DNA of 34,118 nucleotides from Desulfomonile tiedjei (lineage in GTDB: Bacteria; Desulfobacterota; Desulfomonilia; Desulfomonilales; Desulfomonilaceae), in contig JACRDG010000123.1 of NCBI GenBank assembly GCA_016218715.1, positions 1 through 34,118 of the forward strand, given 5' to 3'. How positions within the stretch are numbered: the stretch's first letter is position 1; every line of letters begins with the position of its first letter. Below, piece after piece: positions 4,401 to 24,868 of the stretch. The notes beneath the pieces are model-generated. The model ran no database searches, had not been told where the DNA came from, and saw only the letters and a list, made by a program, of their open reading frames with translations. A program made the position numbers and the translations under genes.

Positions 4401-7328
4401 ATGGCTCGACAACGAAATAGATTGCTGTGGCGCAACTGGTTACGCGTGGTGCACCCCGGAATTCTGTGCGAACAGATGGAGGATCGCATTGTGCTGGACG
4501 CGGCCGCCGCGCCCGCGCATGACACGCAGACCCAGAATTCCAACCCGGTCGGCTCAGAACTTGTCGCGGTTCCAGACGGATCGGTTTCGCAGCAGCTCGC
4601 GGGGCAGACCGGCGGCGCGTCTCACGTGACAGACCCGCTTTCGCAGATCTTTGCCAAGGATCTGAACGTCATTCTCGTGTCGAATGCACTGGACCAAATC
4701 AAAGGGATCACCGACGCGGCGAAGGACGGCACCACGATACTATCTTTCGACCCGATTCAAGACAATCTCGCGACGATCAACTCCATGCTCGATAACGTTG
4801 TCCAGGCGACAGGCGAAAAGATATCCACGCTCGCCATTTTCGCACATGCCGGTGAGGGTCTGTTCACCCTCGGGACCGACAATTTCACCTTCTCGAACCT
4901 GAATGCTTTCGCCTCCGGCTTGGCCTACCTCCAGGGCGACCTGGCAGCCAACGCGCAGATTCAGCTTTACGGTTGTTCCCTTGCCGGCAATGCTGACGGG
5001 CGGATCCTGGTCAATACCATCGCGACGTTCACGGGAGCCGATGTGTTTGTCAGCAAGGATCTCACCGGCGGCGCAGCACAGAACTGGACCCTGGAATACT
5101 CCTCCAATCCGAACGCGACCATGAGTCCGCTCGTGGACACCGTGAAACTGGCGGATGCCGGAATCACGCTGTCCGCCCCATATCCCGAAGTTCCCAACAA
5201 CTGGGCCAAGTCCATCCCGGGAGTGGCCATGTTCTTCGCGAGCGAAGACGTAGAGAACGGCACTGAACTCTGGCGCAGCGACGGCACCGCGGCCGGAACC
5301 TTCATGCTGAAGGACATCAGCGTGGGAAAGTCCGGGAGCAATCCCTCTGAAATGACGCTCTTCGACGGCAAACTCTATTTCAGGGCCGATGATGGAGCGA
5401 ACGGCACGGAGCTCTGGGTCACTGACGGCACCGCGCCGGGGACGCACATGGTGGCTGATATCAACCCCGGACGTGCGGACAGTGACCCGAGCGGGTTTAC
5501 GGTTGTCGACGGATTCCTGTATTTCAGTGCAACGGATGGTGTTAGCGTAGACAGTCACGGGACCGAGTTGTGGCGCACCGACGGAAGTGTCACTGAGAGA
5601 GTCACGGACATTAACCCTGACAATCAATCCAGCAACCCCACCTTCCTGACCGAGGTCAATGGGACGCTCTTCTTTGCCGCGACCGACGGCATTAACGGCA
5701 ACGAACTGTGGAACAGCGACGGTACGGCCACCGGGACCAGGATGGTCGTGAACATTAGACCCGGTAGTCTGGGCAGCGATCCCAGCTACCTGACCAACGT
5801 CAACGGGACCCTCTTCTTTGCTGCGACCGACGGAGATCACGGCGAAGAACTCTGGAAGAGTACGCTGGTAGACACCACATGGGTCGCCGAGATGGTGAAG
5901 GACATCAATCCCGAAGTTCGCTCCAGCAGCCCCGGTTTCCTGATCGATGTCAATGGGACGCTTTTCTTCGCTGCGAGCGACGGTAGCTACGGCAACGAGC
6001 TCTGGAAAAGTGACGGGACGGATACAGGCACCAAGATGGTGGCGGACGTGAATGAAGGGATTCAGTCCAGCAACCCCTCTTACCTCGTGAATGTGAATGA
6101 TGTGGTCTATTTCGCGGCCAATGACGGCATTCACAGCAACGAACTCTGGAAGAGTGACGGAACGGATGCCGGCACCAAACTTGTGTTGGATATCGACCCC
6201 GGTCACGTGGGGAGTGATCCGCAGTACCTGAACGCCTACGAGGGAGCGCTTCTCTTCTCGGCCGACGATGGGTCGCACGGGTACCAGCTCTGGCGGAGCG
6301 ACGGCAGCGAGCCCGGCACGAAACTTCTCAAGCAGATTAATCTCCGCGATTCCAGTTTCCCGCTCAATTTCGCGATATTGAATCCATTGTTCTTCCTGGC
6401 GAACGATGGATCGGGCTTCAAGCTGTGGAAGACCGACGGAACGGCCGAGGGTACCGTGAGAGTTGACACGGTTAAACCTGTGGACGCGGGTGGAGGAAAG
6501 GCTCCAGACGGGAACCAGGCCGCTTTGGCCGGTATCTTGAGTCAGTTGGGTGATTCGGGCCAGGCCGCAGCGTCGGCCGGTCAGGGTGGTTTCAAGCCGC
6601 CGTCGAGCGCTGAAGGCGGTCCCACGCTGTCAGGCACGGGAGCCTATGCTGGTGACACAAAGAGCTCTGCTCCTGGAGATGAAGCAGGATATTCCTTGAG
6701 TAACTTTGGCCGCGGCGGCACGTCAACTTCCGGCCATGCAGAGGACCAACCCGATGGGGCCTCCCAGCAGGGAGTCTCGGAGGGCCATGAAGTGGCTGAG
6801 TCCACGTCAGGCAGTCCGGTGCCGGTAATGGTAAAGGTAATGGCAATGGATAACGGCGACTTTTCCGTGAGGACCGACTCGCTGAACCTCGTCGTGAGTC
6901 ATGAACTCTGGATTCCTCCCATGGTGAAGTGGTACCTTGCTGCAGTCAGCGAGGGACGTTACCGGCCAGGGTCGCTTCCTCGCGGGTACGAGCGGATGAT
7001 CTGGGATTACCTCCAATATTGGAGCAGTCGTCAGGGGGAAGATCAGTCTGTCGTGAAGGACTTGGAGACGCGACTCGCATGGCAGTGGGCTGACTGGAGA
7101 AGGCAGGTCGTCAAGGACCGAGGAAACGCCGAAGGGCTTCCGTGGACCTATTTCCGAGGACTTTGCGATGCCATGACCGTCTTTTACGGTGAGTCTCACG
7201 GGGGCAAAGTCGATTACTCCAATGCTGTAAACGCATTGCACCACAATGTTCGTAACCTGACCATTATTCCCGTGCAGCTCCCTGACGAGGTAACCACGCG
7301 TTCGGACCAGGAAACGATGACCCGGTGA
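4401..7328 (+). CDS. DUF4347 surface/secreted protein with nine ELWxSDGT repeats, probable export substrate
   Basis: 975-residue protein; ATG preceded by GGAG seven bases upstream. It has no classical signal peptide. Instead there is a basic start followed by CEQMEDRIVLDAA (about 23-35), resembling the LEPR-XLL N-terminal motif of large exported surface proteins. Residues about 88-240 match DUF4347 (LAIFAHAGEG with His149, LYGCSLAG with Cys192, TGADVFVSKDLTGG). Nine repeats of about 45-48 residues follow (about 275-695), each built around FFAATDG and ELWKSDGTxxGT; repeat 5 has lost the SDGT core. A Gly/Ser/Ala-rich linker (about 700-805) leads to a C-terminal domain I do not recognise. The repeats resemble those of beta-propeller-like or extended extracellular proteins. 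The next four genes encode export components, so this is probably their substrate (inference). Confidence 0.8.
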   Translation: MARQRNRLLWRNWLRVVHPGILCEQMEDRIVLDAAAAPAHDTQTQNSNPVGSELVAVPDGSVSQQLAGQTGGASHVTDPLSQIFAKDLNVILVSNALDQIKGITDAAKDGTTILSFDPIQDNLATINSMLDNVVQATGEKISTLAIFAHAGEGLFTLGTDNFTFSNLNAFASGLAYLQGDLAANAQIQLYGCSLAGNADGRILVNTIATFTGADVFVSKDLTGGAAQNWTLEYSSNPNATMSPLVDTVKLADAGITLSAPYPEVPNNWAKSIPGVAMFFASEDVENGTELWRSDGTAAGTFMLKDISVGKSGSNPSEMTLFDGKLYFRADDGANGTELWVTDGTAPGTHMVADINPGRADSDPSGFTVVDGFLYFSATDGVSVDSHGTELWRTDGSVTERVTDINPDNQSSNPTFLTEVNGTLFFAATDGINGNELWNSDGTATGTRMVVNIRPGSLGSDPSYLTNVNGTLFFAATDGDHGEELWKSTLVDTTWVAEMVKDINPEVRSSSPGFLIDVNGTLFFAASDGSYGNELWKSDGTDTGTKMVADVNEGIQSSNPSYLVNVNDVVYFAANDGIHSNELWKSDGTDAGTKLVLDIDPGHVGSDPQYLNAYEGALLFSADDGSHGYQLWRSDGSEPGTKLLKQINLRDSSFPLNFAILNPLFFLANDGSGFKLWKTDGTAEGTVRVDTVKPVDAGGGKAPDGNQAALAGILSQLGDSGQAAASAGQGGFKPPSSAEGGPTLSGTGAYAGDTKSSAPGDEAGYSLSNFGRGGTSTSGHAEDQPDGASQQGVSEGHEVAESTSGSPVPVMVKVMAMDNGDFSVRTDSLNLVVSHELWIPPMVKWYLAAVSEGRYRPGSLPRGYERMIWDYLQYWSSRQGEDQSVVKDLETRLAWQWADWRRQVVKDRGNAEGLPWTYFRGLCDAMTVFYGESHGGKVDYSNAVNALHHNVRNLTIIPVQLPDEVTTRSDQETMTR

Positions 7329-7594: not shown

Positions 7595-7627
7595 TTTTAT
7601 TTGACTGTGGGATTGGGGTACCCTGGA

Positions 7628-8527
7628 ATGTCCCATTCTATTGGGTTGGACTTTCTTGTGACGGGTTTGGTCCTGGCATTTGTGTTGACTCCCGCTGTAC
7701 CCCTGCTGGCAACCGACCTTCAGCTGTCACGAACCGAACCCTCTTTGGAGCAGACAGCATCGCCGGCGGCGGATAGGTCGGAAACCTCGCCTGACAGCGT
7801 CCAGCGTGCCAGCCCAAAAATCGAGGGTGCCGTAATCAGGGCCTATCGTCAGGCTACCGTGGCAGCCGAGGTTCAGGGCGTAGTCGAGAAACGGTACGGG
7901 AAAGAAGGAGACCTGGCCCGGGCCGGATCCGTGGTTTTCGAGATTTCACCCGATCTCTTCCAGACCATCGCTGATCGGTCTAGAGAGCGTTTGGAAGAGC
8001 GCAGAGCCATCCGGGAGCGGTACGAAGAAGAGTTGAAGCTGAAGGAACGGCTCTTATCGCACGACGCGGGGACATTGCAAGAGATTGTGAAAGCCAGGAG
8101 CGAGGTCAAGGTCGCGACCCATAGAGAAAAAGAGGCGAGCCTGGATCTTCAACTCGCCATAAGGGACATGAATAAGTGCAAGGTGAGAGCGCCGTTCACC
8201 GGCTGGCTGGTGAGTCTCCACCGTGATGCGTTCGAATCGGTCCAGCGATTCGAACAACTGTTTCTCATTTCGGACACGTCCAAGGTCTACGCGGTCGCCA
8301 ACGTCCCTCAAGCCTTGGCGCGGCAAGCCACCAAAGGTGCCAATGCCTCGTTTTACAGTTCTTCCGGCGCCGTGTTCCATGGCACGGTGGACAAGGTCGA
8401 GGCTGTCATCGATCCTGCTTCCCAGACGAGGAAGGTCTACATCCTGATCGATAACTCCAAGGCAAGTCTGCAAATGGGTATGCTGGGACAAATCACCTTT
8501 GCTCTGGCCGATCGTCAGGACCGGTGA
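7628..8527 (+). CDS. HlyD/RND-type periplasmic adaptor (membrane fusion protein)
   Basis: 299-residue periplasmic adaptor that would link an inner-membrane component to the outer-membrane channel. The ATG at 7628 is preferred over an upstream TTG at 7601 because GGGG lies nine bases before it and the product then begins with a signal peptide or membrane anchor (hydrophobic to about residue 28). The two halves of a biotinyl-lipoyl-like domain are visible (about 66-106, AEVQGVVEKRYGKEGD; about 184-216, VRAPFTGWL), separated by a charged helical hairpin (110-180). A short beta-barrel part follows. It is shorter than classical HlyD and lacks a long C-terminal part. Its stop overlaps the next start by four bases (GTGA), so translation of the two is coupled. 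Confidence 0.85.
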   Translation: MSHSIGLDFLVTGLVLAFVLTPAVPLLATDLQLSRTEPSLEQTASPAADRSETSPDSVQRASPKIEGAVIRAYRQATVAAEVQGVVEKRYGKEGDLARAGSVVFEISPDLFQTIADRSRERLEERRAIRERYEEELKLKERLLSHDAGTLQEIVKARSEVKVATHREKEASLDLQLAIRDMNKCKVRAPFTGWLVSLHRDAFESVQRFEQLFLISDTSKVYAVANVPQALARQATKGANASFYSSSGAVFHGTVDKVEAVIDPASQTRKVYILIDNSKASLQMGMLGQITFALADRQDR

Positions 8528-10110
8528 CCGAGGTGGCAACCGAAGTTTCATGCCAAACGGGACTGTCCGCGAGGAAGAAGTCCGGTGAGAACCATTCTGC
8601 CGAACGATCGTCCGACGACCGATCCCCTCGCGCCCAGTGGCTGATCGCCGTTTGTCTCGTGTTGCTTCTTACGGGATCTTGCCGAACCTCCCTCATGAAT
8701 CCGCTCGGTTCCGGTGGCCCTCTGTACAGCTCACGCATGAGCGCGGCCGTGGCATTGGCTGACAACAGGATCGTTCCGGTCGCCGCTTTCGCGGGAAAAC
8801 AGTACCTTACCCTTGGCGATTGCAGAGATCTGGCTCTGGCCAGAAACCTCGATCTACGGGCGGCGAAGGTCGATGAGTTGACCAGAGAGATGATTCGAGA
8901 CAGTAGTGGCAAGAAGATCCTTCCTCACCTAGTGTGGGCAAGTGAGTTGGGTCAGCGGGACAACTACGGGTACAGTTTCAGCGACGTTCTGGGCCAAGAA
9001 GGGTTGAGTCCCAACCCTGGAGCCCCCGGAGCCGGGTCAGGGGTCACCAACTATTCAGTCGGCCACGAGCGAGGCACCTGGCGCTATTCCATGGAGTTGA
9101 ACTGGAGCCCCACGGATGCGCTACTGGCCTACTACCTCACCAGGAGCGGGCATAACGACACGCTCAGGGCACACTTCCAGAAGGTGCGCGTGTCACAAAA
9201 GCTCGTCGGAACCGTGGACATATCCTTCTACCGGCTCCTAAGCCTGCAGAAACGCTGCCCCATGGCAAAACGGCTGACCAACATCAGGTCCCGGATTCTG
9301 CAAGAATCCGAACGTTTACATCAGGAGAAACTAGCGCCCGTGGAAGAATGCCACCGGGCGAGGCAGAAATACCTCAAAGCCTCGCGGGTACTCCTCAACA
9401 TAGAAGACGAGTTGGAAAGACAACGGAACATCATGTTTTCCGCGATGTCGCTGTCCCCGGACCGATTGGTGGACTGCGGCGTTAATGTCATCGGTACCCT
9501 GGTAAGGCCGGCTTACTGCGAGACCCTTGCGGTTATAGAAATGACTGCAGTCAGGAACCGACCCGAAGCCCAAGTAGCGGGCCTGAGCACGGCAAACTCG
9601 ATCAACGATCTCACCCGATCGCTGGTGAGGTGTTTTCCGAAACTGACCGGCTTCTGGCGGTACACCAGGGACAAGGACCACTACCTGCTGCAGAAAGATT
9701 GGAAAGACATAGGGTTCCGGGTCTACTTCGATCTCGCGGAGTGGCTGTCCAACTGGGATGAAAAGAAAGCGGCGAGATACAACGTTACCAAGACGGATCT
9801 TGACGGCGGTGCCGTAACGCTGGGCATAGCCGTTCAAGCCCGAATGGCCGCGTTGTCCTACTTCAGGTCACTCAAGGAACTGGAATACGCTGCTTCGGCA
9901 TTAAAAAGTGCGGAAAGAGTGCTCCGTTCGGCGAGAGTCAAGCAAGCGAGCAACGACCTGACCAGGCTCGCATTCCTGGAGGTTCAGGCCGATACGCTCG
10001 AGGAGGAGATCGACGGAGTACGAGCCCTCGGCGAAGCAAACGCTGCGCTCGCAGAACTTTACGCAACTATGGGAACAAACTATAATGAGCGTAGGTCCAC
10101 CTCGCAGTGA
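8524..10110 (+). CDS. TolC-like outer membrane efflux protein
   Basis: 528 residues from a GTG overlapping the upstream stop. After a 37-residue polar start comes a hydrophobic stretch ending in LLLTGSC, a non-canonical lipobox, so it may be a lipoprotein like many OprM-type factors. The core starts with LTLGDCRDLALARNLDLRAAK, the usual beginning of an OEP repeat, and continues with long alpha-helical segments and a second repeat (about 335-528, ending with LAELYATMGTNYNERR). It would form the trimeric outer-membrane channel for the adaptors around it. The N-terminal extension before the hydrophobic segment is unusual and the true start could be further in. Confidence 0.85.
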   Translation: MTEVATEVSCQTGLSARKKSGENHSAERSSDDRSPRAQWLIAVCLVLLLTGSCRTSLMNPLGSGGPLYSSRMSAAVALADNRIVPVAAFAGKQYLTLGDCRDLALARNLDLRAAKVDELTREMIRDSSGKKILPHLVWASELGQRDNYGYSFSDVLGQEGLSPNPGAPGAGSGVTNYSVGHERGTWRYSMELNWSPTDALLAYYLTRSGHNDTLRAHFQKVRVSQKLVGTVDISFYRLLSLQKRCPMAKRLTNIRSRILQESERLHQEKLAPVEECHRARQKYLKASRVLLNIEDELERQRNIMFSAMSLSPDRLVDCGVNVIGTLVRPAYCETLAVIEMTAVRNRPEAQVAGLSTANSINDLTRSLVRCFPKLTGFWRYTRDKDHYLLQKDWKDIGFRVYFDLAEWLSNWDEKKAARYNVTKTDLDGGAVTLGIAVQARMAALSYFRSLKELEYAASALKSAERVLRSARVKQASNDLTRLAFLEVQADTLEEEIDGVRALGEANAALAELYATMGTNYNERRSTSQ

Positions 10111-10143
10111 ACGATTCGATCTTCCCGTAGCACCGGCTTGTTC

Positions 10144-12255
10144 ATGTTTGCACACCCAAGATTCCGCCCTGATTTGGACGCGTTCGCTCAGAGGGACGGA
10201 AGCGGGCACACGATAATCCTTTTGAAGGACCCTGTGTCCGGAAAGTACTTCCGCGTCTCACAGTACGAACATCGTTTCCTGAAAGCCTTGGACGGCAAGG
10301 TCGCTGTCGAAGACGCTCAGGAGCTGTTGAAGGCCAAGGGATATTTCTATTCGGCCGAAGACTGCAGCCAGATAGTGGGGAAAGCTGCTCAGGCCGGCCT
10401 TCTGTTGGGGACCCAGTTCGGGACCTCGCGCTACCAGAAGGCAATGAAGAAGCGGATAACCGACTGGAAGCGAGGGCAGCGTCTGGCCAGCCTCTACTTC
10501 CTTTTCATCCCCCTGGTTAACCCAGACCGCTTCCTCCAGCGAACGGTTCACGTCTTCCGCCTGCTGTGCAACCGCTGGACCGCTCTGCTGGCCGTCCTGG
10601 CCCTGCCAGGAGCCGTTTATCTTCTCATTTCGGGATTGCCGAGGATTCACACGGAATTCCTGTTCTTTTTCAACCTCACTAACCTGCTGTACCTCTGGGT
10701 GACCATAGCCCTGACGAAGCTTGCTCACGAACTGGCCCACGCCTATACGGCAAAGGCAATGGGATTGCATGTGCCTCAGATGGGTATCGTCTTTCTAATA
10801 TTCTTTCCGTGTCTGTTCTGCAACACGACGGACGCGTGGCAACTGGCAGATCGCAGGCAGCGTATGGCCATTAGCGCCGCGGGCGTTGTTGCAGAGATGG
10901 TCTTGGCCATATTCGCTACGTACGTGTGGTATTTTTCCAAGCCCGGTATTCTCAACTCTGTAGCCCTGTACATGATGGGCGTCTCACTGGTGTCGACGAT
11001 CCTTGTGAACGGGAATCCTCTGCTCAAATTCGATGGTTATTTCCTCCTCGTGGATCTGCTACGGATACCCAACTTGTACCAGAAATCTTTCGCACATCTC
11101 AGGTACCTGTTCATGAACGGAGTTCTCGGTGTAGCCTCGACGCCCTCCCCCGCCCGAAACAGCGAAGAGCGGGCGATCTTCACCGTATACGGATTGTCGT
11201 CCTTTATCTATCGCATGCTTGTGTACATCGGAATAGCGGTTGGCGTGTACTATCGCTTCGACAAGACGCTTGGGATTTTGCTCGCAGCCCTGGCTATAGG
11301 GTTGTTCATGGTGCGGCCCGCTATGAAGGGCACAGTCAGCCTTTACCGGCAGCGATCCTACCTTCGGCCGGGGACTGGAGGAGTTCTGACTCTGCTTGCC
11401 TCGCTGTTCGCTGTGGCACTCCTCTTTTCGATACCCATTCCGGGAAACTCAGTGTATCCTTGCTTTCTCGATTCCGCCAAGAAACAGAAGCTTACGGTTC
11501 CTTTGCAGACGTGGGTCGATGACGTCCACATCCGCGAAGGAACAGAAGTGGCAACGGGCGAGCTCTTGTTTACCTTGGATACGTCGGTATTGAATCTGAG
11601 CCTTCTGAGAAAGGAAGCCGACCGCGAGACCATCAAAACAGACCTGGAGTTGATGCTCCTGGAAGACCAGCGCAGGGCCGAGATTGCTGGGAAGGAAATA
11701 GAGCTATACCAGGTGGAGGACGAGATCCGGCGAATAAGGCAGCAGCTGGCGGAATCTCAAGGCGGCATCACCGCCCCCTTCGATGGGGTGGTAACAAAAC
11801 TCGATTCCAGGATGAAACGAGGTTTTCAACCTGGTGAAGGTGTCGTTGTCGGCGAATTGGAGTCCACGGCACAACGCGAGGTGCACGGACTTATACCTGA
11901 ACGAGACCTCCACAAAGTAAGTGTGGGTCAGGAAGTTCGCGTGGTGTTCAATTGTTCCAGACAGGAGTTCACGGGGAAAGTGCTTGATATCAAGCCATTT
12001 TCCGAGAAAGATCTGAGAGAATCCCCGTTTTCCAGCCGCGTGGGCGGCGAACTGGCGACCGAAGTAAGAGGGCAGGACCAGAAGGATTCCCCCCTAGAAG
12101 CCCAGTTTGACTGTCTGATGCCATTCGGCAACAGCGAGACCGAAATACCGCTGGGTATGACTGGAAGAATGGCGGTACCCGTCCATGCTCAGAGCATTGG
12201 AGGACGGGTGCTGGACACGCTGTCTCGAACGTTCAACAGAGAGTCCTTTTGGTAG
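10144..12255 (+). CDS. PqqD-like / M50 metalloprotease / HlyD adaptor fusion
   Basis: 703-residue multi-pass inner-membrane protein (ATG at 10144; a TTG two codons earlier is possible). Residues about 1-90 resemble a PqqD-like peptide-binding domain (FRVSQYEHRFLKALDGK). A polytopic site-2-protease region follows. It has the zinc motif HELAH (His195, Glu196, His199) inside a membrane helix and the third-ligand motif NPLLKFDGY with Asp297, so the active site looks intact. From about 440 to the end comes a periplasmic biotinyl-lipoyl/HlyD part (VDDVHIREGTEVATGE; ITAPFDGVVTKL) with a short coiled hairpin. This combination is known in exporter clusters annotated as site-2 protease/HlyD, with no defined mechanism. 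It may recognise and process the substrate's N-terminus while forming part of the conduit (inference). Confidence 0.88.
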   Translation: MFAHPRFRPDLDAFAQRDGSGHTIILLKDPVSGKYFRVSQYEHRFLKALDGKVAVEDAQELLKAKGYFYSAEDCSQIVGKAAQAGLLLGTQFGTSRYQKAMKKRITDWKRGQRLASLYFLFIPLVNPDRFLQRTVHVFRLLCNRWTALLAVLALPGAVYLLISGLPRIHTEFLFFFNLTNLLYLWVTIALTKLAHELAHAYTAKAMGLHVPQMGIVFLIFFPCLFCNTTDAWQLADRRQRMAISAAGVVAEMVLAIFATYVWYFSKPGILNSVALYMMGVSLVSTILVNGNPLLKFDGYFLLVDLLRIPNLYQKSFAHLRYLFMNGVLGVASTPSPARNSEERAIFTVYGLSSFIYRMLVYIGIAVGVYYRFDKTLGILLAALAIGLFMVRPAMKGTVSLYRQRSYLRPGTGGVLTLLASLFAVALLFSIPIPGNSVYPCFLDSAKKQKLTVPLQTWVDDVHIREGTEVATGELLFTLDTSVLNLSLLRKEADRETIKTDLELMLLEDQRRAEIAGKEIELYQVEDEIRRIRQQLAESQGGITAPFDGVVTKLDSRMKRGFQPGEGVVVGELESTAQREVHGLIPERDLHKVSVGQEVRVVFNCSRQEFTGKVLDIKPFSEKDLRESPFSSRVGGELATEVRGQDQKDSPLEAQFDCLMPFGNSETEIPLGMTGRMAVPVHAQSIGGRVLDTLSRTFNRESFW

Positions 12256-12466
12256 TACCTATGTGCGTAAGCACCAGACACATTCCGTCCTCGCCAGTCC
12301 GCAGACCCCCTCACGCCAGGCATCGAAAGACGAACCTGGCCTCTGGGGACCTGCCGGCGGCCTCTCTCTCTGGTAACCGGGGTGCCGCGGATAGGCACAG
12401 GCTGCAATGCGTAACCGGGGCGGTTGATATGATCAGGGCGCAACCAGCCTTTGACAGGAGGTCCCG

Positions 12467-13897
12467 GTGACCGAACCTGTACTTCCACAGGAGAGGTTCC
12501 TCGCTCTGGCCGTAGAGCTATGCTCGCGGGCCGTGGCTGCGGAATCCGTAGACGAAGTTTATTTCATACTTACCAACGATCTCAGGATTCTTGTGGAATT
12601 TGACCGTTGCTTCCTGATCATGCATCTGGGCGGGGAGTCCCGTTTTGTTTCCGCCACCCATCAGCCGGTCCTGGACGGAAAATCGAGACTCCAGGACGTG
12701 CTGGAAGATCTGTCTCGACATTTGTTGCTCTCGGACCGGCCCCTGGTCCTCTCTATGACCCAAGAGACCGGTTCGTTCGCGGATCAGGGAGTTCCAGAGG
12801 AGGATGTTCCGGCTTTTCAGTCCTATGCGGAGCTGGCCGGCTGGAAATACCTTTGTTGTCTACCGCTGACCTACAACGGATCCGTGGTGGGGCACTTGCT
12901 CATGGAGTTCCTTGGCGACAACGCGCCCGAAAAAGATGGCCTCATGGCTCTCGTAAAAGCCAGCCCGGTCTTTGGTGCCGCGCTGGCGATAAGGTGGCTG
13001 TTTGAGAGCAGGCCTGTAGCCGCCAAACTTCTCCACGAAGGGCTCCAACAGGGCATCCGGAGGAGAAGACTTGTCAATCGGTATTTGCCTGTCCTAACCG
13101 TGGGCGCGATACTGGTGTTGGTTCTGATGTTCCTGGTCCCAATGAAGCTGTGGGTAGGAGGGGAAGCAATAGTTGCCCCCGAGGAAAGGCAATATGCCTT
13201 CTGCAAAATAGGGGGCCTGATCGACAGGGTGTACGTCAGACACGGCTCGCAGGTGGAGAAAGACCAAGAACTGGCCGTGCTCGATCATAGAGAGCTTGAT
13301 CTGAAAATCAGACGCGAAGACAGACAACTGGAGATGCTAGCCAAGGAAATGGCACTCCTGAGAAGTAGGGCCCTGGACGATCCATCGATGTTGGGAAAGA
13401 CCAGGCTTCTGGAGCTTAAGCGAGAAAGCGTCCAGGCCGATCTGGATTTTCTTCGCTTACAGAGGCAGTTTTTGGTCATTACGGCCCCAGTGGCCGGCGT
13501 CATTATATCCAAGGATGTGGAGACCTTTTCCGGGAAGAAACTCGAGGCGGGGGAACCCTTTTGCGAGATCGCCGAGCTCGGCCGATTGTGTGCGGAGATC
13601 CATGTCCCCGAAGACAGAATCATGGGGGTACGAAAGGGTCAGAAGGCGTACCTTTACCTGAACAGCGCCCCTCGTCAAGGCTATCTCCTGACGGTGCAGG
13701 AGATAGCTCCAAAGTCGGAGGTGGAACCTCGCCTCGGCAATGTGTACAAGGTAAGAGCCGCCTTTGTGGATACCCCGGAGCCGATAAAAGTGGGAATGAA
13801 AGGGATTGGGAGTATAGACCTGGGGACTGCAAACCTTTGGACTATTCTGAGCAATCGGCTGGCCGAGCGTTGGAATCAAGCGTGGCTGCGTTTTTAG
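12467..13897 (+). CDS. GAF-domain / transmembrane / HlyD adaptor fusion
   Basis: 476 residues; GTG start with a strong AGGAGG five bases upstream. Residues about 10-180 look like a GAF domain (FDRCFLIMHLGG, KYLCCLPLTYNGSVVGHLLMEF), which would be cytoplasmic. One transmembrane helix (about 207-226) leads to a periplasmic HlyD part: lipoyl half (VYVRHGSQVEKDQELAVLD), coiled coil (about 275-330), second lipoyl half (ITAPVAGVIISKDVETFSGK) and a beta barrel up to the end. The arrangement puts a small-molecule or redox sensor directly on an adaptor, so export could be gated by a cytoplasmic signal (inference). It is the last gene of the locus. Its stop is 16 bases from the stop of the converging nuclease gene, with no visible terminator between. 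Confidence 0.85.
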   Translation: MTEPVLPQERFLALAVELCSRAVAAESVDEVYFILTNDLRILVEFDRCFLIMHLGGESRFVSATHQPVLDGKSRLQDVLEDLSRHLLLSDRPLVLSMTQETGSFADQGVPEEDVPAFQSYAELAGWKYLCCLPLTYNGSVVGHLLMEFLGDNAPEKDGLMALVKASPVFGAALAIRWLFESRPVAAKLLHEGLQQGIRRRRLVNRYLPVLTVGAILVLVLMFLVPMKLWVGGEAIVAPEERQYAFCKIGGLIDRVYVRHGSQVEKDQELAVLDHRELDLKIRREDRQLEMLAKEMALLRSRALDDPSMLGKTRLLELKRESVQADLDFLRLQRQFLVITAPVAGVIISKDVETFSGKKLEAGEPFCEIAELGRLCAEIHVPEDRIMGVRKGQKAYLYLNSAPRQGYLLTVQEIAPKSEVEPRLGNVYKVRAAFVDTPEPIKVGMKGIGSIDLGTANLWTILSNRLAERWNQAWLRF

Positions 13898-13913: not shown

Positions 13914-14552
13914 CTATGCCAGGCTCAGACTTTGTCGGCGCGTATGCCGCGAGGCCCTCGCGTCGGTCACCTTCGGGATTAGTGGCACATGTTTGCTTAC
14001 TGCGTCATGCTGGACTGCTATTACTGCAAGAAGACCCTCATCGACCCGAATGGATCGCCATACGCGAAAATACGGCCTTATCTCGGCCAGGTGACCGACG
14101 CGATTCGCCAGGAACCGGTGCATCTCATAGGAAGGCACGATCAGAACTCCGCCGATCATCACCTTCTCGATCATCCCGAGCGCCATCTTGTTCATGATCC
14201 CGTGGCTGGATAGGCTGTTGCCTGTCGGCCACTCCAGGGCAAAAACACGGTCTGAGACCGGAAAACACGCGTCCATTTTCCATGACTTCTTCACTGTATC
14301 AACGCCGCATGGTCTCTCCAAAATCCAGCCGAAGGACTTCAACTGTCGCATAAAGGCGCTTTTTATCGGTGCAACCCCGTTACCCTCGCCCGGTTTCTTA
14401 CCGCACTGTGAATACAGAGTGAAAGAGCCGGAGCCGGGAGGCCAGTCGACAGTCTTGATCGCTTTGGTTATGTGATCGTAAATAATTTGCCATTCCTTCG
14501 TGCCGGAGAATCCCCCCGTATCAATTAGCGGCTCGACGCTCACGATTCTCAT
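13914..14552 (-). CDS. BamHI-like type II restriction endonuclease homologue, active-site variant
   Basis: 212 residues, about the length of BamHI (213). From memory of the BamHI sequence, these blocks align in order: GNGVAPIK (BamHI NGVVPIK), GWILERP (NWYREKP, keeping the Glu77 equivalent), KMDACF (Asp94 equivalent), ALEWPTGNSLSSHGIMNKM (MEFETGNISSAHRSMNKL), LANRVGHLAEIRPYF (LTDRVTNFEELEPYF) and VSKHVPLIPK (NSNVPLIPK). The Glu111 equivalent is kept, but the Glu113 equivalent is Pro (codon CCG). In BamHI, E113 is essential for cleavage and E113K binds DNA without cutting. The gene stands 18 bases downstream of the 117-codon gene and no methyltransferase is nearby, so it is an orphan. It may be inactive, altered in specificity, or a DNA-binding remnant. 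Confidence 0.8.
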   Translation of the reverse strand: MRIVSVEPLIDTGGFSGTKEWQIIYDHITKAIKTVDWPPGSGSFTLYSQCGKKPGEGNGVAPIKSAFMRQLKSFGWILERPCGVDTVKKSWKMDACFPVSDRVFALEWPTGNSLSSHGIMNKMALGMIEKVMIGGVLIVPSYEMHRFLANRVGHLAEIRPYFRVWRSIRVDEGLLAVIAVQHDAVSKHVPLIPKVTDARASRHTRRQSLSLA

Positions 14553-16151: not shown

Positions 16152-16604
16152 TCAGTTCCTTGCAATCTTGGTGGCTGCCATTTCCACGACTGATTGTGCG
16201 ACAGCACCGGCAGCAGATCTGGCTCCGAGCCCCTCGACAGTCCAGAACTCCACGTGAAAACCGCTTTCTGGGCCCAGTTCCCAACCCGGGAAATCCTGGG
16301 CGTTGACGCTGTACCCTCTAATAGTCACGCTGGAGCTCCACTGCCCCACGGTAAGTAGAGTATTGTTCCCGACGGGGTACTGAATAACCTCCGTGTCGTA
16401 ACTTGCCACTGTCATGAGCTGAATCTTGTTGTACCCATACGTGGCCCCTCCGTCGGCAAGATTGAACATCTTGTCATAGTTCTTTTGCGCGGAACTGAAT
16501 CTTGTGTTCATGATGCTCTGAACCATCAACCCTGCCCCCAGCAGACTCACGACCGCCAGGATCAGCAACACCAGGGCTACTGCCATACCTCGTTCCTTAT
16601 TCAT
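16152..16604 (-). CDS. pilX: PilX-type minor pilin
   Basis: 150 residues. The N-terminus MNKERG-MAVALVLLILAVVSLLGAG has the basic leader, the Gly6/Met7 prepilin-peptidase site and the hydrophobic N-helix. It lacks Glu at position +5, as is usual for the PilX/GspK class that caps pilus tips. The early region fits the PilX_N domain (FSSAQKNYDKMFNLADGGATYGYNK). AGGAG lies nine bases before the ATG. It is the last pilin gene of the operon, 37 bases after pilW, and would act with PilV, PilW, FimT and PilY1 in pilus priming in the inner membrane and periplasm. Confidence 0.8.
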   Translation of the reverse strand: MNKERGMAVALVLLILAVVSLLGAGLMVQSIMNTRFSSAQKNYDKMFNLADGGATYGYNKIQLMTVASYDTEVIQYPVGNNTLLTVGQWSSSVTIRGYSVNAQDFPGWELGPESGFHVEFWTVEGLGARSAAGAVAQSVVEMAATKIARN

Positions 16605-16641
16605 GGTTCAGTTCTCCTCTCTGCCTATCTTGCCCAGACGT

Positions 16642-17583
16642 TCAGTAGCTTCGGATGATCCGGGGGCTGGCCGCGAAGGTGCGTGTCAGCACCGGCCCCC
16701 AGTAGGCTGTACGGCCACGTGTTCGGTACGATATCGTCACCTCCACCTGCCGGAGGTTCGTCGGGCTGGTGTTGGTAGTTTGCCATGTACCGTCTGCGAA
16801 CTGGCACCTGACCTGAAAATTGGTGACGTCCAAATAGGGGTCTCCACCAAGAATAGGCACATCGTATGGGCTGTTATCGTCTCCCCGGTTGCGCCACAGC
16901 GAACCGAGCATTTCTCCTCCTCCCACGTCGACCTGCCTCCACTTGTACGAAACCGCGGGAGACACCAACGTGCCGGTGGCGACCGCTCCAACCAGGGGGA
17001 ATCTCCAATTCTGGGTTCCCTCGAGAGGGCCCGGGACAGCGGAAGTACCTTTGACATTGACGTCCATGACCGCTCCCGATGCCGTGATAATCGCTCCAAT
17101 CGCAGAATTCATACTGGCGACCGGAGTTCCGGAATTCGAGATTTGAGGAAAAGCCTCCAGCATGAACTCTCCAGAGGTGGCTAGCGCAAGCCATCCCTGG
17201 TAGCCTGGGTCCGTGCGCGTTTCAGCGAAAACGCTATTGCGTTGTATCGCCGACTTGATCACGGGGTTTGCTATCACATCGGGGTTGTTCAACGTCAGAT
17301 GGCCACTGTAGTTGAGGTACAACTCATCGGGTGCGCCGGCGGTTTCCTTCACGAAGACAGCCAACTCAGGATGGGTCGAGACTCCGTTTCCCGCCATGGC
17401 TATGTCCCTCGCAATAATGGTCTGAGTAAAGAACACGGTGTCCTCGGCTGCTTTGTGCTTGAAAGTGACGAACCCCGACCGGCTCTGAAAGATGAAGAAC
17501 GATAACGCCCCGACTATGGCAAAAGCGAGAATAGCCAAGCTCACCATACATTCAATCAGCGTGAAGCCTTGTAATCTTTTCAT
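16642..17583 (-). CDS. pilW: PilW-type minor pilin
   Basis: 313 residues from the ATG at 17583, chosen over an ATG four codons earlier because GAGG lies six bases upstream of it. Class III prepilin signal MKRLQG-FTLIECMVSLAILAF with Gly6/Phe7 and Glu11 (position +5). A PilW-like early region follows (AEDTVFFTQTIIARDIAMAGNG). The C-terminal half is beta-rich with few cysteines. It is a minor pilin that joins the initiation complex of the type IV pilus. It starts 31 bases after the pilV stop in the same operon. Confidence 0.85.
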   Translation of the reverse strand: MKRLQGFTLIECMVSLAILAFAIVGALSFFIFQSRSGFVTFKHKAAEDTVFFTQTIIARDIAMAGNGVSTHPELAVFVKETAGAPDELYLNYSGHLTLNNPDVIANPVIKSAIQRNSVFAETRTDPGYQGWLALATSGEFMLEAFPQISNSGTPVASMNSAIGAIITASGAVMDVNVKGTSAVPGPLEGTQNWRFPLVGAVATGTLVSPAVSYKWRQVDVGGGEMLGSLWRNRGDDNSPYDVPILGGDPYLDVTNFQVRCQFADGTWQTTNTSPTNLRQVEVTISYRTRGRTAYWGPVLTRTFAASPRIIRSY

Positions 17584-17614
17584 CGGCCGCCTCATCCAGA
17601 CAATGCCCGCTTCC

Positions 17615-18082
17615 TCATTGATAAATGGTGGACATTCTAAGGTGGCGCAGGCACTTCGTGGGATCGGCGTACGTGCATTGCGGGCCGTCCCAGGCCACCA
17701 CCACTTCGAGTATCTTTACCCCCGAAGGGTCATCCGTTGACGTCCACGTGAGGAAGAACCTTCCGGTGGGTTTTGTTTCGTCGATGCAGGGTTCCATAGT
17801 ATAAGCCGCCTTCCCTATTTTCGTTCCTCCAGGACCGGGAACAAGTTGTAGCGGCCTCTGGCATGCGTCGCTGGCCAAGCCTGACCCAACGTTCCCTGCC
17901 CGGAATCTCTCAATGACCTTGGTACCGGCGGTTTCGGCACGCCTCAGGGTTGCGTTGTATCTGTCCGAGTTGTAGGAAGCGAAGAGCATGGAGCCGACGG
18001 CGGCCATGCCGATGGCTAGTATTGCCAAGGCTATCATCAGCTCCACTAGATTAAAGCCGGCCTGCCCGCCACGTTTTCTCAT
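17615..18082 (-). CDS. pilV: PilV-type minor pilin
   Basis: 155 residues. Prepilin signal MRKRGGQAG-FNLVELMIALAILAIGMAAVGSM with Gly9/Phe10 and Glu14 (position +5), then a short globular part with four cysteines (DACQRPLQL, MEPCID, PQCTYADPTKCL). Length and N-helix fit PilV. The spacing to its neighbours (33 and 31 bases) places it inside the minor-pilin operon. Confidence 0.85.
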   Translation of the reverse strand: MRKRGGQAGFNLVELMIALAILAIGMAAVGSMLFASYNSDRYNATLRRAETAGTKVIERFRAGNVGSGLASDACQRPLQLVPGPGGTKIGKAAYTMEPCIDETKPTGRFFLTWTSTDDPSGVKILEVVVAWDGPQCTYADPTKCLRHLRMSTIYQ

Positions 18083-18115
18083 GGCTCTTTCCTCTCTTCC
18101 ACACCGCTGACTGCT

Positions 18116-18946
18116 CTAATAGCCCGGCCTGATCTTTCCGGACGGGCCGATCCTTATGTACTTCTGCGAATCTTGTTTTGTCGGCCTCCGATCCACCACC
18201 AATAAGTAACCGTTGGGATTGGAAGCAGCTCCCCTGGAATTGAACGCCACCGTCGCGGTCGTGGTGTTGGGCCACTGGGTCGGCGACGGTGCGCCGGGCT
18301 CAATTGCCTGTGCAGCAGCCTGCGCAGTGGTAAAAGCTGCAGATCCCGGGACCAGGTTGGTCGCATCCCAGACAGTTAAGGCTCTCCCTTCGTAGTAGAA
18401 GAAGGCCTGATTTTCCGCTTCCTTTCCATACTGTGAAATGAGAGCCGAGTCGGCCAAAGGCGGACTGGGTTTCTTCTTGATCGTGAGCATCGAGGACTTG
18501 TTTAAACTCCGCGCAACGCCCGTGGTATCGTTAACTACGAGCTTGGTGTAATAGGGACATTTAAACGTATTGGCATCGAGGACGGTCATGTAGAAGACGC
18601 CGCCATTCATCCCGGAGTGTTTATCCAGACGGCTGAACGTGACCGTGTCGCCGGTCGCAAAGCCGTGGTTGGCCGTGGTGAATTGCACGTGTTCGTACAT
18701 GCCGATCCCGACATTGTAATCAACCGCCTGGCCGCTGGTGATAGTAACGGCATTCTGGTTGTTCAGGGCTCTCATTCTGGCGGCATTGAGGGCAGTGATC
18801 AGGGTTCTTTCCAGTTTGGACTGCTCGGTGTCTATGAGCAATCCTCTGCGGTAGATCCCCAGCATCGTCGCGGCCACCACGGCCATTACAAACATGGCCA
18901 CCAGGAGTTCTACCAGTGTGAAGGCGTTTTGTCTGGATCGCTTCAT
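18116..18946 (-). CDS. fimT: FimT/GspH-type minor pilin with an FCCH-like insert
   Basis: 276 residues from the ATG at 18946, which has GGAGG eight bases upstream and avoids overlap with pilY1. The prepilin signal is MKRSRQNA-FTLVELLVAMFVMAVVAATMLG, with Glu13 at position +5 but Ala instead of Gly before the cleavage site; prepilin peptidases are known to tolerate Ala there. It is longer than usual FimT/GspH proteins (about 160-180 residues) because of an insert at about 84-130 (VQFTTANHGFATGDTVTFS...). A similar stretch occurs in the PilY1 of this operon. The rest fits a GspH-type beta fold. It would act in the pilus initiation complex. Confidence 0.8.
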   Translation of the reverse strand: MKRSRQNAFTLVELLVAMFVMAVVAATMLGIYRRGLLIDTEQSKLERTLITALNAARMRALNNQNAVTITSGQAVDYNVGIGMYEHVQFTTANHGFATGDTVTFSRLDKHSGMNGGVFYMTVLDANTFKCPYYTKLVVNDTTGVARSLNKSSMLTIKKKPSPPLADSALISQYGKEAENQAFFYYEGRALTVWDATNLVPGSAAFTTAQAAAQAIEPGAPSPTQWPNTTTATVAFNSRGAASNPNGYLLVVDRRPTKQDSQKYIRIGPSGKIRPGY

Positions 18947-18998
18947 GACCCGGGCCTCCGTTCCGAGAGGGCCACCCGTTCGCGGGGCCGAACTCTTT

Positions 18999-21900
18999 TT
19001 ACCTTTCCAGCCATGCCTTGCCCTTAACAAAGTTTCCTATATCCACCGGTATTTTCAGGAGCGAAGCATCGCTCATCTGTGTGATGACGTTGCTCCCTGA
19101 AGAATCCAGGACCGGTTGGCTCGGCAGACCGCTGCCCAGGCTCACCTGCACACCGTAGGGAGTGGGCTCGGTGCCTCCCGATGGCGTGTACGTGAAGGTG
19201 GCGGTTGGGGTATTGTTCGGCAGCAGTTTGGCGAAATCGATGGAATTGGGATTAGTACACATGTAATCAAAGATGTACAGGTACCCGTTGCTGTTGGTGG
19301 AGCATAGATCCGAAGGCGGCGCATACGTGGTAATGAACAGCAGCCCACCCGCAATGAGCGCTTTGTTCACCACCCGTTCTCCCGACGGTGGGGCCAAAGG
19401 ATCCGACATCTGCAAGGGATTCTTCAGGTCGAAGATACAGGACCAACAGGGCGGACTGGCGCTCTGGCAGGGGTCGGCCGAGTTGTCCGAATTCCGCCAC
19501 CTACAGAATTGATTATTGAAGGTTTCACAGTTGGAGATCCTGTTCACCGCGATATTGAAGCTGGATCCAGGTACGCTTTCGTACATGTAGGTTTTCGTTT
19601 TGCTGCCCAGGTCACCCTTCACATCGACCGTTTCCTGGAGGTTGTAGATGGACATCCTCACGGGATCGGTGGTATCCGGCTGACTGTTGGGCGTCTCAAA
19701 AGAGCCGGAGTCCGTGTTGTCGTATTTTCCCGTACCGAAGATCACGTGCACCTGGTCTCTGTACACCTGATCTATACTGGCAACCGGTTGGCTCGTAATC
19801 GGCTGTCGCTTCCCAAAGAAATGGCTCCATTCGTCCGCGCAGTCGTTACTGGTCCCGGCAGTGGGGCAACGCTCTTCCCGCAATTGTCCCGGCATGGTCT
19901 TCCTGAGGTTCACGAGCAGTCCGTTCGTCGACTGACCGTGACTCTGATCGAAAAAGAACTTGATCCCATAAAAATAACCTGTGAGATCGCCCATATACAG
20001 GTGATCCGCGAACCCGTCGTCGCCTATCTTCTCACCGGCCGCATCCCAGAGATCCAGGAGGAGCGGGTCGCTCATGGCATAGGGAAGGGGCCCGCCGGGG
20101 GACCCGAATTTTGAATCGGGCCCTCCGTAAATAGTCGGCCAGTCAGTTACTGCCTCGGTTTGGGCTAGGAGGTACGGCCAGACGTACCGGAACAGGTTCT
20201 GTCCAGTCTCCATGTCTATGGCCAGGAGATTGGGTTTTTGCAGAGGCCTGAGGTCATACGTTGGCCCAGTGGAGACTGGCTGCCAGGAAGACTCGAAGAC
20301 TCTGAACCCGCCTCCGATGAACGCGACGTGCCGCGGGTTCGGCTCGCTGAAATAGCTGAGAGGGAGGTTACCGGTGCTGAGGGGGTTGTCCGTGTACAGT
20401 CTGGATCCGGAGGGGAGTGCCACTCGTCCCGCCTGAGGCCTGGACCAGCTCAATGGCAGGACCTTGAGGGAATCGTACATCGCCTTATAGTTGTCCGAAT
20501 TGCCGTCCCAGAGATACCTGTAGTACTTACCGGAACTGTAGGTTATGTGGTTCTTGATGGCCGAGTACTCCCAGAGCAGTCTCGGCTCGTCCGGATTGGT
20601 GACGTCGATCGCGAAGTAGAGGTCTCCGCCGCCACGCTGTCCGCCGAGCAATACGGTTCTCCAGCATTTGCCACCGGAACCATAGCTGACCGTCTGAGCG
20701 GCATTAATACCGGGCAACTGGCAGTCGGCCTTGATACGTACATGCCATACACTTTCCGACAGATCCACCATGGCCCGGTGTGAGCAGCTCGTCCCGCCGT
20801 AGGTCCTACTCGCGAGGGCTTTCAGTTCCGACAGCAGGTTGCTCGGGATATACGACCAGAGTTCTTCGCCAACGTATTTAGCATAAGGATGAAGAGGATC
20901 TTTTTTGAAGTGCCAGGCCTGAGTCCCCCAATCCCACACCCCGAGGACAACGGCATGGACCATTCCGTCGTTGCCCCCCACGTACACCATCTGCTTTACG
21001 CAGTCTTCAATGCCTGTAGGCACCGGGCTGATCCGGTTTGTGCTGGGGTCGGAGCCCATTACGGCATCTCGTCGAGCGATAAGTTTGTTGCGGTAATCAT
21101 AGTATTCCGACGTTGCGCAGTCCGTGCATTCCCTTGGGGACACCGCGCCCAGGCTCGGAATCCCTTGAACCACCGGCGTCGAGTACACGATGTCCCCCAT
21201 CCGCCAGATGGTGCCGTCCACATCTGCACGAGACCGGTAGTGTGTGTCCTCTTTGCCCTTTAGATGGTCTATGAATGCCTGAACGTCCGGCTGATCGACC
21301 ACCCCGGTCGTGCCATAGAAGTCGTTGTCGGTGGTGGTGAGCTTGAGCCGATCCCTCCAATCCGACCATGTGCTTCCCGAAGTTGCTCCGATCTCGAAAT
21401 CTAGTGACTCGGCAGCGGTCGGATACACGGAACCGATCCGCCCGTCGTTGTCAGCATCCCAGCCCGTGAAAATCCTGCGGTTCAAGCCTGTCGCTGCGGA
21501 AGGATCGTTCAGAAAGCTGGCAGCGTCCCAGCAATAGGCCGATCTGGCAGACGGGCAAGGCGCGCCCGTCGCTCCCACAACCGGCGGTCCGGGCATCTCA
21601 TAGCAGAGCAGCCCCTTGTTGCAGGAATACTCAAAGTCGTACGTGTTGTTATTGGTCGTGTCGGGCCAGAATGCCTCGAGATGGCCGAACCAGAGGTTCC
21701 TGTCGACATCCGGGTCCTTGGCCCGGAACGCGCCGCGGACGATGATGTCCTCTGCCTTGATTTCCTGCGAGACCGTGGCCACAGCACTGGCCGACGCGTT
21801 GACCGTGACGATGTCGTGCAGCACCTTTGTGAGAGAATCGGCCAGCAAGCTCCCCTGGCTCGCCTCATAGTAGTTGTCCGGCAATCCCTTAAATTGCTCT

Positions 21901-24437: not shown

Positions 24438-24868
24438 CACTCCACTCCTTCCTGCTGACCGAGAACGATCACAAACAATTTTTGTCCCTTGCGGCAAACG
24501 TACACCTCGGTCCCATTCCTCACGACACTCCGGGGTAATTCGCGACCCTTAACATCCATCACGGCTAGGTCGTTGTTTTCGACGGAGATTCTCAACGCGC
24601 CGCGAGGTACCCAGATCTGAAAATCAGGAGGTGCGAACGTGGCCACCTGCACGGGACCGCACACCGCATAGCCCGAGGACAGATACCGCATTTCTATCGG
24701 TGCGTCGGCGAGCACTGGGGGCTGAAATCCGATGGTGGGTATTCCCGGTGCGACCTTATCAGCCGCATCGCAAACCGTTGCGCCAACGAACGCTCCGACC
24801 AGGAAGGAAGAAATCAACATGCCCACCAGTGCGTGGCATAATGAATTGCCTTCTTCCATCCGTATCAT
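24437..24868 (-). CDS. small exported protein translationally coupled to pilY1
   Basis: 143 residues; GGAGGAG just before the ATG. An N-terminal hydrophobic segment (about 10-33, ALVGMLISSFLVGAFVGATV) followed by CDAADK looks like a signal peptide or anchor. The rest is beta-rich (FQIWVPRGALRISVENNDLAVMDVKG, TEVYVCRKGQKLFVIVLG) with three cysteines beyond the segment or near it. I recognise no family. The stop shares one base with the pilY1 start, so the two are made together. It is the first gene after the sigma-54 promoter. It may be a periplasmic partner or chaperone of PilY1 (inference from position). Confidence 0.65.
   Translation of the reverse strand: MIRMEEGNSLCHALVGMLISSFLVGAFVGATVCDAADKVAPGIPTIGFQPPVLADAPIEMRYLSSGYAVCGPVQVATFAPPDFQIWVPRGALRISVENNDLAVMDVKGRELPRSVVRNGTEVYVCRKGQKLFVIVLGQQEGVE

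Follow-up and report, generated by a model that had tools for sequence, protein, structure and literature searches.

How would a locus that encodes three HlyD-type adaptor parts and a TolC-like channel, with no ABC exporter gene beside them, move proteins out of the cell? The question is raised by a stretch of 34,118 nucleotides from Desulfomonile tiedjei (assembly GCA_016218715.1, contig JACRDG010000123.1, positions 1 to 34,118; hereafter the window), in which four open reading frames (ORFs) for a HlyD protein, an outer membrane channel, an M50 protease fusion and a GAF/transmembrane (TM)/HlyD fusion follow one another on the forward strand. With a probability of roughly 55%, this locus is a SecA2-less form of a widespread type-I-like export module for proteins carrying an N-terminal LExR-type leader. 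The likely cargo are large adhesin-like proteins that lack a Sec-type signal and carry an N-terminal leader close to LLEQLEERIVLDAA.

The HlyD-type periplasmic adaptor (7601-8527, +; probable ATG at 7628) has one N-terminal hydrophobic segment, and its gene overlaps by 4 bases that of the TolC-like outer membrane channel (OEP; 8524-10110, +; PF02321, 6.2e-15). The fusion of a PqqD/RRE-like domain, an M50 site-2-type protease and a HlyD part (10138-12255, +; 705 aa; Peptidase_M50, 5e-9) follows after 27 bases, and the GAF/TM/HlyD fusion (12467-13897, +; 476 aa), in which hydropathy identified one strong hydrophobic segment (206-224), after a further 211 bases. HlyD_D23/HlyD_3 was matched in three of the four proteins using Pfam and OEP scored over its cut-off, so that the adaptor and the outer membrane factor of type I secretion were both found. 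A dedicated ABC exporter was not found in the window: the ABC, RND, MFS and SecA families were absent among 16 window ORFs scanned with Pfam, which lie within the first 28.7 kb, and neither a crude regular expression for the ABC signature nor a SecA2 profile matched any window ORF of at least 80 aa. Four consecutive genes on one strand with no transporter ATPase in the set had been proposed in an earlier reading of the sequence alone (hereafter the sequence-only reading), and both statements were confirmed. The locus thus shares HlyD-type adaptors and a TolC-like channel with classical type I secretion (HlyB-HlyD-TolC), but differs in having no ABC exporter and in that the conserved signal described below is N-terminal.

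The M50 and GAF/HlyD genes adjoined each other in 19/19 Desulfomonilaceae loci (8 genomes, window included), which argues that the gene arrangement is not due to chance. An OEP gene was present in 14 of these loci and a separate HlyD gene in 13, and some of the loci reach contig ends. Five M50 modules were found in the genome from which the window comes (G000; 5.55 Mb, 99.99% complete, 3.71% contamination). Clustering of the neighbours of the 19 loci (ORFs < 3,000 aa) recovered, in at least three loci each, the module itself, cargo (5), kinase-type genes (5), a short protein (3), genes like that at 1161-2435 of locus L035 (3) and repeat proteins (3); an additional motor-like gene did not recur among these neighbours. 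A small protein with a YYSNCAM... motif was also observed near 3 of the 19 modules (L034 435-971, L037 8486-8827, L048 9060-9440). The GAF domain proposed for the last gene of the set scored below the Pfam gathering cut-off in the window protein (19.9 versus 22.4 bits), and was matched at E<=0.01 in 21/32 family members, the window protein among them; the GAF protein may sense or assemble.

Proteolysis by the M50 fusion appears to be under selection, given that H197, E198, H201 and D299 were invariant in 80/80 aligned homologues (L051, with 24% identity and no HlyD part, was left out of the alignment). The HELAH motif occupies residues 197-201 when counted from the TTG start, or 195-199 from the ATG two codons further on, the numbering in which it had correctly been called intact, and both HExxH and the distal Asp motif lie inside the membrane core as in other M50/site-2 proteases. 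Hydropathy identified eight segments, one of which corresponds in the predicted model (pLDDT 87.9) to the S2P beta-hairpin at 215-228; by parity, the remaining seven TM segments would leave the N-terminal domain in the cytoplasm and the HlyD part in the periplasm. The full model also matched adaptors such as MacA and ZneB. The best NCBIfam match was the daptide biosynthesis intramembrane metalloprotease (NF041824; residues 34-392, 168.5 bits, under the cut-off of 300), from which the window protein differs by its extra HlyD part and by the presence of a large cargo gene rather than a small precursor.

A leader-binding fold of the RiPP recognition element (RRE) type is predicted for residues ~1-96 of the M50 fusion (10138-10425, +), whose model (pLDDT 88.8) has three strands and three helices. 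The four best Foldseek matches in the PDB (probability 1.00) were RREs whose structures include lasso leader peptides, and in VIA-align the highest Z scores were obtained for TigE (9.9; 84 residues, root-mean-square deviation (rmsd) 2.9), the lasso B1 protein 6jx3_B (9.6) and TbiB1 (9.5). Matches to RREs spanned 82-85 residues at rmsd 2.9-3.2; these were followed by a methyltransferase winged helix, considered below, and then by other proteins such as MccB, heterocyclases and sactipeptide enzymes. The PqqD-like label that had been given to this domain was not reproduced on the window sequence (no Pfam match at E<=0.1); in the family, 24/42 members, the window protein not among them, matched the PqqD profile at E<=0.1 (best 1.6e-6), and the label fits the predicted fold. 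The predicted winged-helix fold is that of RREs that engage leader peptides, such as lasso peptide B1 proteins, TbiB1, TigE and MccB; unlike these, the domain is fused to adaptor and intramembrane protease parts, and its candidate substrates are large adhesin-like proteins.

The candidate cargo of the window is a protein of 975 residues encoded 5' of the module on the same strand (4401-7328, +), in which a leader is followed by DUF4347 (PF14252, 1.8e-26) and nine ELWxxDGT repeats (TIGR04534, 9 stretches, 4.5e-155); a scan of 19-residue segments at a mean hydropathy of at least 1.4 found no hydrophobic segment in it. The leader comprises the first ~38 residues (4401-4515, +) and contains GILCEQMEDRIVLDAAAA, a motif common to 33 distinct leader proteins, in which it lies near residue 21-22, and many neighbours of the family modules are large ORFs that start like MGLFDFWNKPRVCRPTMLLQQLEERIVLDAAI. 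A degenerate DNA pattern for the leader gave 34 matches in module-bearing family genomes (12 in G000, one of them at a contig end and assigned to no protein) versus 2 for the reversed pattern, and occurred in 9/11 module-bearing versus 0/7 module-free Desulfomonilaceae genomes. Outside the family it was matched once each in 6/42 genomes; the three of these matches that were inspected (L132, L143, L144) all lay deep within other proteins, and the reversed pattern gave 8 matches across all 60 genomes.

The motif fell at residue 20-22 in 27/33 of the proteins with a leader near the N-terminus when the start was set at the last Met lying 17 or more residues upstream, a choice that favours positions >=18, and at 11-60 across the 33 proteins when the first start was used. 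Some of these proteins are close paralogues and thus do not represent 33 independent events. Positions left free in the search were conserved as well, with E/Q at -2 in 32/33 and Q at -1 in 24/33 (counted before LE). Median hydropathy over the first 60 residues was 1.05 for leader proteins versus 2.78 for HlyD and 2.60 for OEP. In G000, leader genes also occur at a distance from modules, three of them consecutively on contig C65, which suggests that the modules may act in trans. The C65 tandem of leader-bearing proteins was recorded at L177 8710-14859 (-), with no M50 match listed on that contig.

DUF4347 was present in all four family cargo proteins scanned, and was followed by cadherin, FG-GAP or Ig-like repeats in three. 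In 5 of the 8 cargo proteins checked, the DUF4347 region contained a hydrophobic-(S/A)-H-(G/A) motif and, ~43 residues later, (L/F)Y(G/A)C; the carriers were the window cargo (residues ~146-192), L035, L036, L039 and L040. Clan CD (caspase-like) proteases have a motif pair of this kind, and DUF4347 might be a self-processing peptidase.

The leader resembles LEPR-XLL proteins (NCBIfam NF012209, cut-off 17 bits) in having an N-terminal LExR.LL-type motif on giant proteins, several of which lie beside related modules; the Desulfomonilaceae leaders differ in being LEERIVLDAA-like. Cargo N-termini beside related modules scored 35.1 (L123), 27.6 (L227), 25.5 (L131), 21.9 (L124) and 17.8 bits (L044), while L035, L045 and one L177 protein scored 10-14 bits and L176 and L094 gave no match. 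Among six Desulfomonilaceae leaders scored, one (L044) passed, four reached 10-15 bits and one was unmatched; among five cargo N-termini of a second group of modules (an Alpha/Gammaproteobacterial clade described below), four were at 12-16 bits and one was unmatched.

Co-occurrence of leader and module was seen in three taxon samples. Two of these were labelled Gammaproteobacteria (185 genomes) and Alphaproteobacteria (190 genomes), classes that were inferred from their centre genomes, Halomonas and Sphingorhabdus. LEPR-XLL exceeded its cut-off in 17/24 module-bearing versus 8/161 other gammaproteobacterial genomes (Fisher p 6e-13) and in 7/10 module-bearing versus 6/180 other alphaproteobacterial genomes (Fisher p 1e-7), both tests ignoring shared ancestry; at >=20 bits the gammaproteobacterial counts were 13/24 versus 2/161. 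Gammaproteobacterial genomes were considered module-positive when the M50 part matched at >150 bits (24/185; G134 (118), G113 (88) and HlyD-only matches were excluded), and all 10 matches were counted in the alphaproteobacterial sample. For 11 of the 24 genomes positive for both, the listed coordinates place the leader gene no more than ~15 kb from the M50 gene. The leader also varied by clade, being LEPR.LLSAD in the SecA2 clade and LEERIVLDA(A/S) in Desulfomonilaceae; LEPRMMFDAA or LExR(I/V)VLDAAA was found in 5/15 second-group loci using a looser expression that may also match by chance. As an observation on these sequences only, a clade-specific leader would fit a cognate recogniser.

A dedicated motor seems to be missing from the Desulfomonilaceae lineage, and many related bacteria have an additional SecA. 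G000 encodes one SecA_DEAD protein (889-residue frame), and one was found in 10 of the 11 module-bearing Desulfomonilaceae genomes and none in the remaining, incomplete genome, such that a second SecA_DEAD occurred in 0/11; the sole extra SecA_DEAD pair in the family was in G017, a genome with no M50 module. Elsewhere, second SecAs were counted in genomes reached from 50 of 80 named loci and in 32 selected genomes of the class-wide samples. A second SecA_DEAD over cut-off was present in 43/45 genomes reached through named non-Desulfomonilaceae loci, the exceptions being a Granulosicoccaceae genome and a fragmentary genome titled Chthoniobacter, and the 5 Desulfomonilaceae genomes had one each. 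A SecA match lay inside the fetched stretch in 24/80 named loci, and in 0/5 of those from Desulfomonilaceae. A dedicated pump gene in most genomes, which would count against the sequence-only reading, is thereby half borne out: the wider family is not generally motor-less, and Desulfomonilaceae and one further clade are.

That further clade emerged from the class-wide samples, in which a second SecA was scored at > 50 bits. The SecA2-type group had one in 12/14 genomes, whereas 16/17 genomes of the second group had none, the other (G209) being ambiguous with two overlapping SecA fragments; 13 of these 17 genomes were placed in the M50 tree and the others were assigned by match extent. Matches of 18-28 bits, mostly in ~700-aa frames and including one over the Pfam cut-off (G221, 27.2 bits), were excluded and taken as other helicases; G118 and G162, each with two full SecA proteins, show such matches too. 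G055, from the same phylum as the window (single contig, 99% complete), belongs to the second group and has one SecA.

The M50 tree, a quick one with midpoint rooting for drawing only, resolved three deep clades, with SH-aLRT support of 100 for Desulfomonilaceae, 99 for the SecA2-type clade and 90 for 14 second-group rows. The SecA2-type clade also contains two divergent copies and the Granulosicoccaceae row with no second SecA. L093, a long-branched planctomycete at the base of the second group, was counted as SecA2-type by default; G286, which groups with a planctomycete second copy, and G169, in which a weak second SecA (96 bits) adjoins the M50 gene, were assigned no SecA class. Taken together with the single-SecA genomes, the tree indicates that lack of SecA2 tracks lineage and that assembly gaps alone do not explain it. 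A second SecA hidden near the loci was considered and rejected: a profile built from 20 SecA2-type proteins matched none of the 19 Desulfomonilaceae and 15 second-group loci. The profile did score 651-898 bits in five SecA2-clade loci, of which L228-L231 had not contributed to it and L131 had; it had no match in L227 and L124, both of the SecA2 clade. Seven SecA_DEAD matches over cut-off were observed in G096 (Rubrivivax sp., the genome of L110).

In the open-access literature searched, the gene set was found only in Kamneva, Poudel and Ward 2015 (PMC4452313), and the two mentions of LEPR-XLL that surfaced were passing, neither tying it to the module. The 2015 paper describes M50/HlyD, GAF/HlyD and HlyD genes together, sometimes with OEP and without an ABC transporter, beside a secondary SecA_DEAD ATPase; its proposal was that the M50 protein serves as pore, SecA_DEAD as ATPase and GAF as regulator, with the broader biological role termed completely unknown. 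The window locus shares this gene content but belongs to a family in which 11/11 module-bearing genomes lack the secondary SecA_DEAD. Neither a SecA-less form nor a cargo or leader was found in the paper, whose main text has 0 occurrences of 'LEPR' and 'DUF4347'; according to it, Methylobacterium extorquens AM1 carries the SecA2 form. The central idea of the sequence-only reading, with the M50 fusion in place of the pump and the GAF fusion as regulator, is thus not new, having been published for relatives of these loci. As far as that paper tells, the locus is a form of a known kind of system studied so far without experiment; as far as we found, the SecA2-less lineages, the leader and the LEPR-XLL link go beyond what the literature search turned up.

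Under the preferred reading of a SecA2-less export module, the giant adhesin would be synthesised in the cytoplasm with its leader, which the RRE-like domain of the M50 fusion would bind. The intramembrane protease would then cut at the motif or directly beyond it, and the N-terminus so released would be committed to the channel. Three HlyD parts, one each from the M50 fusion, the GAF fusion and the separate adaptor, would form a periplasmic collar docking onto the TolC-like channel, through which the cargo would reach the cell surface. Housekeeping SecA/SecYEG is the most conservative candidate for the energy source, and membrane potential or folding outside the cell are bolder ones. It had been claimed that the M50 fusion handles the N-terminus of the substrate; it stands as the best candidate for this role (conserved leader, leader-binding fold), and binding and cleavage themselves are steps that we infer. 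Capture and cutting are suggested by the predicted fold and by conservation, and passage by the adaptor and channel parts.

Several observations weigh against the preferred reading. The window cargo scored 14.6 bits for LEPR-XLL and so falls under the cut-off for membership. Besides the shared ancestry noted above, LEPR-XLL over cut-off was missing from 7/24 and 3/10 module-bearing genomes and present in 8 and 6 module-free genomes and in 1/14 control genomes. The contrast obtained with the leader pattern is partly built in, since the pattern was drawn from module-adjacent family leaders, and a single genus accounts for 6 of the 7 module-free genomes of the family. Hydropathy ranges overlap, with leaders up to 1.61 and the lowest OEP frame at 0.99, and the leader has no TM segment, the usual substrate of a site-2 protease. 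Foldseek E-values for the RRE matches were 0.008-0.02, and in VIA-align the methyltransferase winged helix (PKMT2, Z 9.2) ties with the RREs. Seven of the 11 family genomes are at least 94% complete and the remaining four 81-86%.

Among the alternatives, a processing station is possible, if not what we would expect: SecYEG and housekeeping SecA would carry the cargo across the inner membrane, and the M50/GAF/HlyD proteins would only trim the leader and hand the cargo to the TolC-like channel. G000 does have a canonical SecA (the 889-aa frame), and the relatives that keep a second SecA indicate that the pathway tolerates a Sec-type motor; however, the cargo leaders lack a Sec-type hydrophobic core and no hydrophobic segment was detected in the window cargo. 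A bolder version of the export reading is offered tentatively and is doubtful as a whole. It supposes a machine with no dedicated nucleotide-driven motor, in which the leader-binding protease would grip and cut the leader of the giant adhesin and feed the chain into a three-HlyD channel, driven by membrane potential or external folding, with LEPR-XLL as an address tag across several phyla and SecA2 as an optional motor that one clade has retained and two lack.

The notion that the M50 fusion is itself the inner-membrane conduit with no ATPase involved, as the sequence-only reading had it, is unlikely. The lack of a second SecA in Desulfomonilaceae and, at > 50 bits, in 16/17 second-group genomes fits it, as does the lack of a recurring motor-like gene beside the 19 family loci, but the sister clade usually has a second SecA_DEAD, in several loci adjoining the same M50 gene, and site-2 proteases are not known to conduct proteins. 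It is quite improbable that the locus serves ordinary type I secretion through an ABC, RND or MFS pump encoded at another site in the genome. Adaptors and channels of these kinds do work with such pumps, and the ABC signature may overlook truncated genes (in L048 an ABC-like frame extends past the edge); yet the fetched stretch of 17/19 family loci had no ABC signature by the crude regular expression (RND and MFS were sought in the window only), the exceptions L036 and L046 had it 5-8 kb away, and only 3/80 named loci had the signature. Surface attachment or sensing rather than export, with the leader as anchor and the GAF/M50 pair as signalling relay, is very improbable. In its favour, a histidine kinase gene adjoins the window cargo gene, and ligand sensing and signal release are the usual roles of GAF domains and site-2 proteases, respectively; against it, the three HlyD parts and TolC-like channel point to transport and kinase-type genes cluster in only 5/19 loci.

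The export reading joins three unexplained items, namely the type-I-like loci linked to SecA in 2015, the orphan LEPR-XLL motif of giant bacterial proteins and M50 fusions to which no role had been assigned. If it is true, an export route can be predicted for many giant surface proteins, together with an address tag open to testing, and the SecA2-less clades raise the question of what powers the export of very large proteins.

Other features were observed around the module. Directly 3' of the GAF fusion, on the opposite strand, lies a gene for a BamHI-family restriction endonuclease (13914-14552, -; PF02923, 2.5e-43), with no methyltransferase seen beside it among the 16 window ORFs scanned. 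A minor pilin cluster (16152-24497, -) contains PilX_N and three N_methyl proteins and is adjoined by a protein of 1832 residues whose match to the PilY1 propeller is weak and falls slightly short of the cut-off. An IS3/IS481-type transposase (135-989, +) is located close to the contig start.

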